Assembly (NCBI GenBank): GCA_903896045.1
Contig: CAITWD010000003.1
Coordinates: 1 to 56,356, forward strand
Origin: an uncultured Actinomycetes bacterium
GTDB taxonomy: Bacteria; Actinomycetota; Thermoleophilia; Miltoncostaeales; Miltoncostaeaceae
DNA: 56,356 nt
Direction of reading: 5' to 3'
How positions within the stretch are numbered: position 1 is the first letter of the stretch; each line of letters starts with the position of its first letter. Positions 9,160 to 12,970 of this stretch are shown here, piece after piece. The notes beneath the pieces are model-generated. The model worked only from the letters and a program-made list of their open reading frames with translations, was not told the DNA's origin and did not search any database. The position numbers were made by a program, and so were the translations under genes.

Positions 9160-10894
9160 GGGGTGGCTGCGTCGTACTGATGTGTGACTCTGGCACCACC
9201 ATGCGCGCAATCCGTGCAAGTACCGGCTGATATTCGAGTGCGGGCAATTTCCAGCCCCGCGCGGTCGTCATGGCAAGCGCCTCGATGAGTCTGGTCGTCG
9301 CCTGCTCGACAGAAATCTGTCGCACTGGGAGGCCCAATTCAGTGATGGGACGCAACAGCTCTCGCTGAAAGCGCGCCTGTGTCACATCATTCAAAAAGAA
9401 CGCATCGCGGGCAGCCCCATCCAGGTCATTTTGATCGATGACCACCACTAACGGCGACCATCGACCCTGCTCCTTCTCAATTGCGAAAATCAGATGCTGC
9501 TGTGCTGCAGGACCCCCTGCCGATGCGATCCAGGCACTGGCCACCGACGCCGTACGCAAGCCCTCGATCCATGGCCGCACTGCGGTTTGTGTCCCCTTGG
9601 CCGCCTGCAGCGCCGCGTCACGACGCGGGCCCTCCAAGACCGCGGCGCAGGCAAGGCAGACATCCCGTCCGTCGCTCCCGCAATGACCAATGCTCTCAAG
9701 GAGCTCCCGGGATCGCGGTTCATCGAGATCGCGAAAGACCTGCTCAATAAGTGCGCCGACCAGATACGAACGATGTGGCGACAGGATCTGCGCGACAAGG
9801 CGCTCGGCAACACCAACCCGATTCGAGATCTCGGGAATCCACTCCTGTGCTTCGCGATAGGCGGCCTGGGCATCAAGGTCGCCGGCCAAATCCTCAAGGC
9901 ATGCAGCGACCTCCGCATCCGCACGGCCGCTCGTTCGGGCCAAACCCTCCTCTGCCCATCGCCGTGCCGAGACGACGTCACCGAGCCGAATTGCCAACAG
10001 ACATGCCTCATAGCGATCCTCGGGATCATCAAATCCAAACGCACCGGTGAGCACCGCCAAACCATCACGCGTCCGACCGGCACGCGCCAAGACCCGTGCA
10101 AGGCGACGGCGGGCCTCTGGAACGCGTTCTGGTAAGTGACGACGCAGCAGTGAGACAACCCGATCCTGTAACTCTGCTGCCCGACTGGGTTGATCGGCGG
10201 CGAGAAAATCGGCCACCCCACTCTCAAGCGCATCGATCTCGAGCTCGGTGAGCGGATCCCAGCGTGCCCCCGTTGATGCGACCCAGCCCAAGTGCATCTC
10301 AAGGCCTGCATCGGCGAGTGCTTCGCTCAACGGACGATTCGCGCGACGGAATGCCGTCGATGACTCTGCAGTCACTGCGCAGAATGCATCCACCAAACGC
10401 ACGCGAATAAGTCCGTGGGCATCGGGTGCGGTGTCGGCGAGGCGTTGCCCAATGCGCGCCACAAGCAGCTGCTCTGCCTCGCTGCCGATACGCCAACTCG
10501 GTGCACGCTCGACCACAATCCGACCGGAATTGACATCGTCGATGCGCACCGCGACATACTCACCCGATTTGATGTCGGCTGGAATGGCCACGCGATCAAT
10601 CCCAACCACACCCAGAGGGGCAAGATCCCCATCGATCTCTACGGCGCCGCGCAGATGTGCCTGCTCGGTCACCAGAGTGGTGACAACCACCCCATCCAGA
10701 GCCTCGGCACGACCGGCATATCGCCCATCTGCCAGATCAATGATCCGCGCGTCGCGTCGCAGTGCGGTGCGTACCGAGGCGATCGGATCCTTTGCCCGCG
10801 TCATGCCCTGATCGACAAGCGCGTGCGCAATCTCAACGAGTGCAGCGGGGCCATCGTGAAGGTAATCAACAGCGGCATCGGCAATGCGACCCAT
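9146..10894 (-). CDS. Unrecognised protein: N-terminal winged-helix-like region plus helical repeats
   Basis: This 582-residue soluble protein has no assigned function. Residues 1-65 read like a HARE/HB1-type winged helix, the fold of the RNA polymerase delta subunit (an ADAAVDYL helix, IAHALVDQG, then SVRTALRRD and an ADGRYA wing). Residues 240-370 are Ala/Arg-rich helix pairs resembling tetratricopeptide repeats. A cluster HCGSDGRDVCLAC lies near residue 428. The C-terminal 110 residues form an alpha/beta segment with LVVVIDQNDLDGAARDAFFLND and RELLRPITELGLPVRQIS. A nucleic-acid-binding regulatory role is only a guess. It is divergent from the thioredoxin-like gene with 85 bases between starts. 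Confidence 0.75.
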   Translation of the reverse strand: MGRIADAAVDYLHDGPAALVEIAHALVDQGMTRAKDPIASVRTALRRDARIIDLADGRYAGRAEALDGVVVTTLVTEQAHLRGAVEIDGDLAPLGVVGIDRVAIPADIKSGEYVAVRIDDVNSGRIVVERAPSWRIGSEAEQLLVARIGQRLADTAPDAHGLIRVRLVDAFCAVTAESSTAFRRANRPLSEALADAGLEMHLGWVASTGARWDPLTELEIDALESGVADFLAADQPSRAAELQDRVVSLLRRHLPERVPEARRRLARVLARAGRTRDGLAVLTGAFGFDDPEDRYEACLLAIRLGDVVSARRWAEEGLARTSGRADAEVAACLEDLAGDLDAQAAYREAQEWIPEISNRVGVAERLVAQILSPHRSYLVGALIEQVFRDLDEPRSRELLESIGHCGSDGRDVCLACAAVLEGPRRDAALQAAKGTQTAVRPWIEGLRTASVASAWIASAGGPAAQQHLIFAIEKEQGRWSPLVVVIDQNDLDGAARDAFFLNDVTQARFQRELLRPITELGLPVRQISVEQATTRLIEALAMTTARGWKLPALEYQPVLARIARMVVPESHISTTQPPPDPS

Positions 10895-10979
10895 AGATGC
10901 ACCTTACCAGCGCTCGGCAACGAATCTGGCGACCCTGGATGAGGTTTGCAGGACCCCATATTTCTGCTCTGATGTGCAC

Positions 10980-11474
10980 ATGCACGAGAGCAAAGCATCC
11001 CCAATGCGCATCATCCCCACCACCGTTGAAGATGCGCTCAGTCGCGTCGTTGACGCGCCTGTTGGCATACTGGCGCTTGGTATCCCGCGGTGCCCGGCAA
11101 CAATTTTGCTTGCACCAAGCCTGGAGGTCATCGCTGCTGCACGCCCTGGCCTGCCCATTACCCTTGGGATTCTGGCAACTGCGACCGACTGGGCATCGCG
11201 CGACGAGCTGCTCTGGCCCCGTGGCATCCACATCAGTCGATCGATTGTGCCGGTCGTGGCGTTGCTTCGCGATGGCCATGCGGTGGCGACCCGACGCGGC
11301 GGGGCACCCGCATACGTGATTGATGAATGGTTGACATCGCTGATCGGGAGTGGGCAAACACCTCTCGCAGGCGCACTCTCCGATGATGAATCCGCACAGC
11401 TGGCACTACTGGCCAGACGCCGGGCCCAACACGCGGCCGTCAAGGGTCGGGGATCTGCGGATTCCGGTGCGTAA
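10980..11474 (+). CDS. Thioredoxin-fold protein with a CxxT active site
   Basis: This protein of about 164 residues aligns by eye to thioredoxin: a beta strand (PVGILALGI), then R-C38-P-A-T41-ILLAPSLEVI in place of WCGPCKMLAPILEEI, then ITLGILATA, and SIVPVVALLRDGHAVATRRGG with the cis-proline. The second active-site cysteine is replaced by threonine, giving CPAT, so a classical dithiol reaction is not possible. Alternative starts are GTG at 10974 and ATG at 11004. It precedes the rpsF operon by about 117 bases. Function is unknown; a monothiol or non-redox binding role is inferred. Confidence 0.65.
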   Translation: MHESKASPMRIIPTTVEDALSRVVDAPVGILALGIPRCPATILLAPSLEVIAAARPGLPITLGILATATDWASRDELLWPRGIHISRSIVPVVALLRDGHAVATRRGGAPAYVIDEWLTSLIGSGQTPLAGALSDDESAQLALLARRRAQHAAVKGRGSADSGA

Positions 11475-11518: not shown

Positions 11519-11524
11519 TATAGT
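11519..11524 (+). promoter_or_regulatory. Candidate -10 element of the rpsF operon
   Basis: TATAGT lies 66 bases upstream of the rpsF start in the gap after the thioredoxin-like gene. It is the best -10 match in the gap. No clear -35 at normal spacing is seen. Confidence 0.4.
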
Positions 11525-11542
11525 GCCCTGCTTGCCGGAACA

Positions 11543-11562
11543 GGGCCGCTGACACGTGGCCC
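11543..11562 (+). promoter_or_regulatory. Stem-loop in the rpsF leader
   Basis: GGGCCGC (11543-11549) pairs with GTGGCCC (11556-11562), including one G-U pair, around a six-base loop in the rpsF 5' leader. S6-S18 complexes are known to bind leader RNAs containing CCG. The stem contains CCG, but rpsR is not in this operon, so the regulatory role is speculative. Confidence 0.35.
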
Positions 11563-11590
11563 GATATGTATGACGTGAACGGAGACGGAA

Positions 11591-12001
11591 ATTAGCCCTT
11601 ACGAAATCATGATCATCCTTGATCCTGACGCGGACGAGGAGCGCCAGCAAGAAATGCTGGAGCGCGTCCAGCAGATCATTCGGGACGCTGGCGGGGTCAT
11701 TGACCACGTCAACGATTGGGGTCGTCGTAAGCTCGGCTACGCCATGGACAAGAAGGCAGATGGCCGCTACGTCATCGTGACCTGTTCGGCCACCGTCGAA
11801 GGTCTGCGTGAAGCTGAGCGCGTCATGACGATCAACAAAGAGGTCGTCATTCGCCACATGTCGATCGTGCTCAACAGCGTGCAGGCCCAACACGCCAAGG
11901 CAAATGGTGCACCGCTCCCCGCCGATGACCGCCCTGACCGCGAAGAGCGGCCTGCGCGTGCCGGCCGCGGCTCCGGTGGACCCCGGCGGCGAGAGCGCTA
12001 A
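11591..12001 (+). CDS. rpsF: 30S ribosomal protein S6, probable ATT start
   Basis: This is the ribosomal protein of the platform of the small subunit, which pairs with S18. The first in-frame ATG (11609) would begin at MIILDPDAD and remove the conserved first strand (YEIM) of S6. The codons before it read Ser-Pro-Tyr-Glu-Ile, and an in-frame TGA at 11576 leaves no ATG/GTG/TTG upstream. ATT at 11591 is preceded by GGAG with six bases of spacing, and would give 136 residues starting (M)SPYEIMIILDPD. The C-terminus is extended by an Arg/Pro-rich tail (RPARAGRGSGGPRRRER). First gene of rpsF-ssb-rplI-dnaB-purA. Confidence 0.9.
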   Translation: MSPYEIMIILDPDADEERQQEMLERVQQIIRDAGGVIDHVNDWGRRKLGYAMDKKADGRYVIVTCSATVEGLREAERVMTINKEVVIRHMSIVLNSVQAQHAKANGAPLPADDRPDREERPARAGRGSGGPRRRER

Positions 12002-12004
12002 ACG

Positions 12005-12484
12005 ATGCCTGCGGATCTCAATCGCGTCACGCTTGTTGGTCGCCTCACCCGCGATCCCGAACTGCGGCACACCGCAGGCGGACAAGCTGTGTGCTCGATT
12101 CGTTTGGCAGTCAGTAGTCGTGGTCGTGATGACAGCGGCAACTGGTCAGACCGCGCCAATTATTTCGACGTGACGGTATTCGGGCGTACAGCCGAAACCG
12201 CATCAAACTATCTCGCCAAGGGGCGACGCATCGGTGTCGATGGTCGTCTTTCTTGGCGCGAGTGGGAAGCCCAAGACGGCGGCAAGCGCCAGTCGGTTGA
12301 AGTCGTTGCCAACGACATCTTTTTCCTTGATTCACGGGGAGAGGGTGGCGAGGGTGGTGGGTATTCCAGCCAAGGGGCGTCACAGGGAGGCTGGAGTAGT
12401 CCAGCTCCTGTCAGCGACCTGCCAGTAGACACGTCTGATCTTCAGCCAATTGCACCGGCTGACGACGACGACATCCCGTTCTAA
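12005..12484 (+). CDS. ssb: Single-stranded DNA-binding protein
   Basis: This 159-residue protein has an N-terminal OB fold of about 110 residues (NRVTLVGRLTRDPELRHT; NYFDVTVFGRTAE; KGRRIGVDGRLSWREWE). A Gly/Ser-rich linker follows, then the acidic tail DDDDIPF, which recruits replication and repair partners. It starts four bases after rpsF and ends 33 bases before rplI, with no rpsR between them, although rpsR usually occupies that position. Confidence 0.97.
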   Translation: MPADLNRVTLVGRLTRDPELRHTAGGQAVCSIRLAVSSRGRDDSGNWSDRANYFDVTVFGRTAETASNYLAKGRRIGVDGRLSWREWEAQDGGKRQSVEVVANDIFFLDSRGEGGEGGGYSSQGASQGGWSSPAPVSDLPVDTSDLQPIAPADDDDIPF

Positions 12485-12517: not shown

Positions 12518-12970
12518 ATGGACGCCATCCTTCTAGAGGACATTAAAGGGCTGGGCAGCGCGGGAACTGTGGTTTCCGTCGCGCGCGGCTACATGCGTAA
12601 CTACCTTCAGCCCCGTGGACTTGCAGAGGTTGCAACGCCCGCAAAGATAGCTGAGGTCCAACGCAATGAATCAAAGCGCAAGGCCGCCGAGGAGCGCGCC
12701 TACGCCGAGGCTGTTGCACAGACCGACATTCTGAACCGCACGATCTTGACCTTGAAGGCCAAGGCGGGCGATGACGGCCGTCTGTTCGGATCAATCACCT
12801 CAGGCGACGTTGCCGATGCAATCAACGAAGCTCGTGGCATCGCAATTGATCGACGTCGTATTAGCGTCGACCCGCCCATCCGCGCCGTTGGTACCTACAA
12901 CGTGCCGGTTGACCTCGGTCACGACTTGATCGCAGAGGTCAAGACGATCGTTAGCCCAGTGCTCGACTAG
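12518..12970 (+). CDS. rplI: 50S ribosomal protein L9
   Basis: This is a 150-residue L9. The N-terminal rRNA-binding domain reads AILLEDIKGLGSAGTVVSVARGYMRNYLQPRGLA, a long connecting helix is rich in Ala/Glu/Lys (EVQRNESKRKAAEERAYAE), and the C-terminal domain contains GDDGRLFGSITSGDVADAI and DPPIRAVGTY. Length and domain order are typical. It lies between ssb and dnaB in the conserved operon. Confidence 0.97.
   Translation: MDAILLEDIKGLGSAGTVVSVARGYMRNYLQPRGLAEVATPAKIAEVQRNESKRKAAEERAYAEAVAQTDILNRTILTLKAKAGDDGRLFGSITSGDVADAINEARGIAIDRRRISVDPPIRAVGTYNVPVDLGHDLIAEVKTIVSPVLD

Follow-up and report, generated by a model that had tools for sequence, protein, structure and literature searches.

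The rpsF gene examined here, which encodes ribosomal protein bS6 in an uncultured member of the class Thermoleophilia, almost certainly begins with an ATT codon, and its order carries ATC, ATT or ATA at the same column nearly throughout. Near-cognate starts (AUU, AUC) are regarded as rare and as limited to a handful of regulated genes. Comparison of sequences among relatives suggests, with a probability of roughly 0.7, that this weak start is maintained and throttles S6 synthesis, a known kind of control in a new gene and clade. The window, i.e. the whole stretch of 56,356 nucleotides that was analyzed (Table 1), belongs to a genome of 1.67 Mb in 41 contigs with 99.85% completeness; its order consists of a single family, represented by 42 genomes in which 39 rpsF loci were read. 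Families are denoted by the anonymous codes of the genome comparison (f1, f2, etc.), f1 being the window's order.

Table 1. Features surrounding the rpsF start in the window
Feature	Coordinates	Strand	Remarks
TATAGT, -10-like promoter element	11519..11524	+	Consensus match only; similar place upstream in most members of the order
Short 5' leader of rpsF	11530..11590	+	No significant match to rpsF_leader (S6:S18)
In-frame TGA bounding the rpsF start region	11576..11578	+	Read from the sequence
Shine-Dalgarno (SD) GGAG	11581..11584	+	Six bases ahead of ATT
Probable ATT initiation codon of rpsF	11591..11593	+	ATC/ATT/ATA in 37/39 loci of the order
rpsF, ribosomal protein bS6	11591..12001	+	136 aa read from ATT; stop codon within coordinates
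Internal Met codon ATG	11609..11611	+	Rejected as rpsF start: no SD, conserved residues lost
ssb	12005..12484	+	Ordinary ATG start; internal control
rplI (bL9)	12518..12970	+	Ordinary ATG start; no rpsR between it and ssb, its usual place

The start region of rpsF and its conservation within the order

The frame that opens with the bounding TGA reads TGA ACG GAG ACG GAA ATT AGC CCT TAC GAA ATC ATG, with no ATG, GTG or TTG between that stop and the ATG at 11609. A start region free of these three codons, normal SD spacing and a conserved non-AUG codon are all found in the window's rpsF, as expected of a near-cognate start. A preliminary description of this DNA had given the positions of TGA, ATT and ATG, and the six bases between GGAG and ATT, correctly. 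Its proposal that rpsF starts at ATT is borne out by agreement in 37 of 39 loci, the preserved SD spacing, stop codons in frame shortly before it, and the occurrence of other start codons in the same column.

Within the order, the codon three positions before the conserved tyrosine (Tyr-3) is ATC in 27 loci, ATT in 9 and ATA in 1, each preceded at 4-8 bases by an SD-like word. The near-cognate codon persists down to 56% DNA identity, and an unambiguous ATG occupies this column in none of the 39 loci. The SD words range from AGGA or GGAG up to GGAGGT and are of ordinary length; the extended S. aureus type (AGGAGGTG or longer) was not found in the order. Two loci depart from the pattern. In L026, ATC has moved to Tyr-4 and an in-frame ATG two codons further up abuts AAGGGA, making the start ambiguous; L069, from a genome with 7% contamination, has GTC at the column. 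Copies from the window's own genus, at 84-90% DNA identity, also carry ATT or ATC, and the codons directly after it vary synonymously (AGC/AGT and CCT/CCC), which matches expectation for translated sequence. The third base of the start codon has changed only about three times inside the order, so much of this conservation reflects shared descent. Base composition does not explain the missing ATG, since fourfold sites of the order's rpsF genes contain 31% G.

Start codons in sister families and across the phylum

Several families carry other weak codons at the same column: ATC (7) and ATA (1) in f2, where all 8 loci are near-cognate, ATC in f11 (1/1), CTG (11/13) or TTG (2/13) in f4, and ACG in f6 (6/6). 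GTG is found in f3 (7/8) and f8 (2/2). Outside the class, f22, which we presume to be Rubrobacteraceae, has ATA, ATC or ATT in 9 of 13 loci; ATG, GTG and TTG prevail in the other families. Five loci of f5 and f7 without a clear SD stand outside these assignments. The best evidence that translation starts at this column, three codons ahead of Tyr, is that many different start codons occupy it. In f2, f4, f6 and f11, the SD ahead of rpsF takes an extended form of 8-9 bases. Also outside the class, three f18 loci (L249, L159 and L247) show CTG twice and TTA once behind an S6:S18-type leader.

The most durable alternative, which we consider unlikely though the strongest of those weighed, is that the weak start arose by accident long ago and has been tolerated: strong transcription would meet the need for S6, and the codon would drift among near-cognates without regulatory value. 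In favor of this view, the third base has changed only about three times inside the order, and codon identity varies by family (ATH, CTG, ACG). Against it, AUG is normally restored by selection (PMC5622118), yet no unambiguous return to AUG is seen across the 80 loci of f1, f2, f4, f6, f11 and f22, although AUG lies one substitution away from every ATH, CTG and ACG codon. A quick S6 tree of about 90 residues, a weak tree, requires at least seven changes between near-cognate and standard rpsF starts. Reconstructed switches elsewhere are 1 of 61,358 for AUG to AUU, 1 of 5,080 for GUG to AUU and 202 of 5,080 for GUG to AUG (PMC5622118); by these rates, it is unusual for a near-cognate start to persist throughout an order and to vary in the sister families without being lost.

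Alternative positions for the start

A shorter S6 starting at the ATG at 11609 is improbable. In its favor, standard ORF finding selects this codon as the first canonical one (the mechanical ORF list gives rpsF only in this shortened form of 130 aa), and its Met is conserved in the order. However, no SD precedes it; the conserved SD lies instead 4-8 bases ahead of ATH. Read from the residue after ATT, the protein scores 86.4 bits against PF01250 (profile positions 2-89; curated cut-off 27), and read from the ATG it scores 77.1 bits (positions 5-89), so that the downstream start removes 9 bits of conserved S6 profile. The preliminary description was right that no ATG, GTG or TTG lies between the TGA and the conserved Tyr-Glu-Ile strand, and that the later ATG would cost conserved N-terminal positions. 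Furthermore, several relatives with a CTG start lack Met at this place (YELVLIL), and within the genus most of the variation in the codons that separate ATH from Tyr falls at wobble positions.

A start at another codon, such as the GTG inside the SD, is still less probable. Most f2 and all f6 sequences have that GTG in frame, and in these two families it keeps a slight chance on sequence alone; but no SD lies ahead of it, and most f4 loci, L050 of f2 and the window have an in-frame stop within the SD or immediately 5' of it. Loss of a normal start through sequencing or assembly error, conceivable in that the data are MAG-like and one base would suffice, is refuted by ATH at the same codon in separate assemblies, including a single-contig genome, and in the same-genus copies: comparison with relatives, which the preliminary description had named as the way to expose such an error, gave the opposite result, a near-cognate codon shared across the order.

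Control genes

A genome-wide shift in start rules is ruled out by three controls. Among motif-anchorable S10/spc ribosomal-protein genes from ten genomes of f1, f2, f4, f6 and f11, all 115 have an in-frame ATG, GTG or TTG at the expected N-terminus, 99 of them with an SD-like word. At 29 of 30 rpsF loci tested, the neighboring ssb opens with ATG or GTG. The 16S rRNA in the window's genome ends in GGATCACCTCCTTTCT with an intact anti-SD, and the end GGCTGGATCACCTCCTTTCT is present in that genome. The low-completeness genome of L021, from the window's order, has CTG at ssb.

The starts of infC differ by family. The order of the window uses TTG or GTG. In five f4 loci (L081, L082, L084, L085, L086) infC begins with ATA, the classical weak IF3 start, after an SD of the GGAGGTG type. 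In three f6 loci (L087, L097, L099) infC apparently starts with GTC after AGGTGT; an in-frame TAG two codons upstream of it in L087 makes a very unusual start codon likely.

The S6:S18 leader and the linkage of rpsR

The rpsF leaders of f2, f4, f6 and many other actinobacterial families share a fold, YCCUGC-hairpin-GCCG-...-AGGAGGUG, with the SD paired in the outer stem. Its covariation is clear: 95.5% of cells are paired, 32 cells are double changes against 7.6 after shuffling, and the score is 0.384 against 0.183 shuffled. A covariance model (R1) matches the held-out rpsF loci of f3, f11 and f22 with 16-45 bits, and matches in the sister families lie at 18-68 bits. The SD-holding stem, the hairpin and the CCG bulge are present in leaders of f2, f3, f4, f6, f11 and f22, and the sister-family leader agrees with the published rpsF_leader bound by S6:S18 (PMC4647458; PMC10931766). 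Although the rpsF_leader family is clear in many Actinomycetota, a search with Rfam 15 returned no matching family, and nothing else of relevance, for the leaders tried.

The leader was not detected in the window's order. On the rpsF strand, the covariance model matches 0 of 21 loci of the order, and in the window it finds only a 3.2-bit partial match at 11526-11550. RNAalifold applied to the window's genus and to genus g12 gave no covariation support for a leader structure, and a regular-expression search found the motif in 22 of 39 loci of the order against a shuffle rate of 43%, no better than chance. Neither the SD stem, hairpin and CCG bulge nor an operon uniting rpsF and rpsR was found in the window.

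The genes run rpsF, ssb, rplI, dnaB in the window, and rpsR lies elsewhere in the genome (G000:C22:20626-20775, L269), a departure shared by relatives in the order; in f2, f3, f4, f6, f11 and f22, rpsR is still part of the rpsF-ssb-rplI operon. A TA[TC]A-N-[TA] element recurs in the rpsF leaders of the order. Just 5' of rpsF lies a 196-aa ORF (10884-11474, plus strand) without a Pfam match.

Proposed mechanism

The ordinary initiator tRNA would start rpsF at the AUU on a 30S subunit positioned by the SD. The SD would recruit the subunit, the near-cognate codon would slow commitment, and S6 output would be set by the proofreading of initiation factors, with IF3 the presumed discriminator; where an S6:S18 operator exists, output would also depend on competition between repressor and ribosome. 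The weak codon would be maintained in that it keeps S6 synthesis low and controllable, and we infer that the low initiation rate is what is selected. A maintained limiting role of the rpsF start at the commitment step is probable. In the window's order, with the leader undetectable and rpsR unlinked, the weak codon may be what is chiefly left to restrain translation. Because each ribosome requires about one copy of S6, a weak start would have to be compensated by a strong promoter or abundant mRNA.

The preliminary description had suggested that S6 translation may be sensitive to initiation factors, and a dependence on IF3 is plausible by analogy. Higher IF3 lowers the use of AUU with the CAU anticodon in a reconstituted in vitro system (PMC10158994), and non-canonical starts in S. 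aureus, which carry extended SDs, yield in poor medium about 10% of what AUG gives (PMC13009471).

Comparison with known systems

The preliminary description had likened rpsF to infC. The parallel is apt, but incomplete, since the weak start of the sister families sits behind an S6:S18-type operator. Like infC of E. coli and S. aureus (AUU/AUA), rpsF here has an AUH codon after a clear SD in a gene of the translation apparatus, with conserved low efficiency. Unlike infC, it encodes S6 rather than the discriminating factor, so that a direct IF3 feedback loop is absent, and its codon turns into CUG or ACG in sister families.

Because of that operator, rpsT of E. coli (bS20) may be the nearer analogue. 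It too encodes a ribosomal protein and has a weak start restricted to a clade, in this case UUG, which is believed to enable competition of S20 with ribosomes, although a review finds compelling arguments lacking (PMC10931766). UUG is a standard minor start, whereas the AUU, AUC and ACG of rpsF are far rarer, and relatives possess a known RNA operator for S6. The sister families resemble the rpsF_leader systems of E. coli and B. subtilis in their SD stem, hairpin and CCG bulge; the window's order differs from these in its undetectable leader and unlinked rpsR. The S. aureus genes cvfC1 (AUU) and ccpN (AUA) likewise combine a conserved near-cognate start with an SD, and their reporters gave about 10% of the AUG level in poor medium, but they encode a small protein and a metabolic repressor rather than a core ribosomal protein, and they belong to Firmicutes. 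No report of a non-AUG rpsF start was found in the literature searched, subscription papers being mostly beyond reach.

Implications

A bolder and tentative extension, which we hold to be possible rather than probable, is that selection acts against AUG in the rpsF genes of Thermoleophilia and of a second deep actinobacterial family (f22). Control would then reside in the start codon itself, through which S6 output would follow the capacity for initiation (IF3, free 30S), and the codon would have outlived or replaced the S6:S18 leader in the order of the window.

For annotation, ORF callers restricted to ATG, GTG and TTG will call S6 too short or too long in these genomes. The rpsF case joins RNA operators and start-codon strength, which are usually studied separately. 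A core ribosomal-protein gene that keeps a near-cognate start order-wide, with CUG or ACG in its relatives, provides a natural series on the purpose of weak starts.
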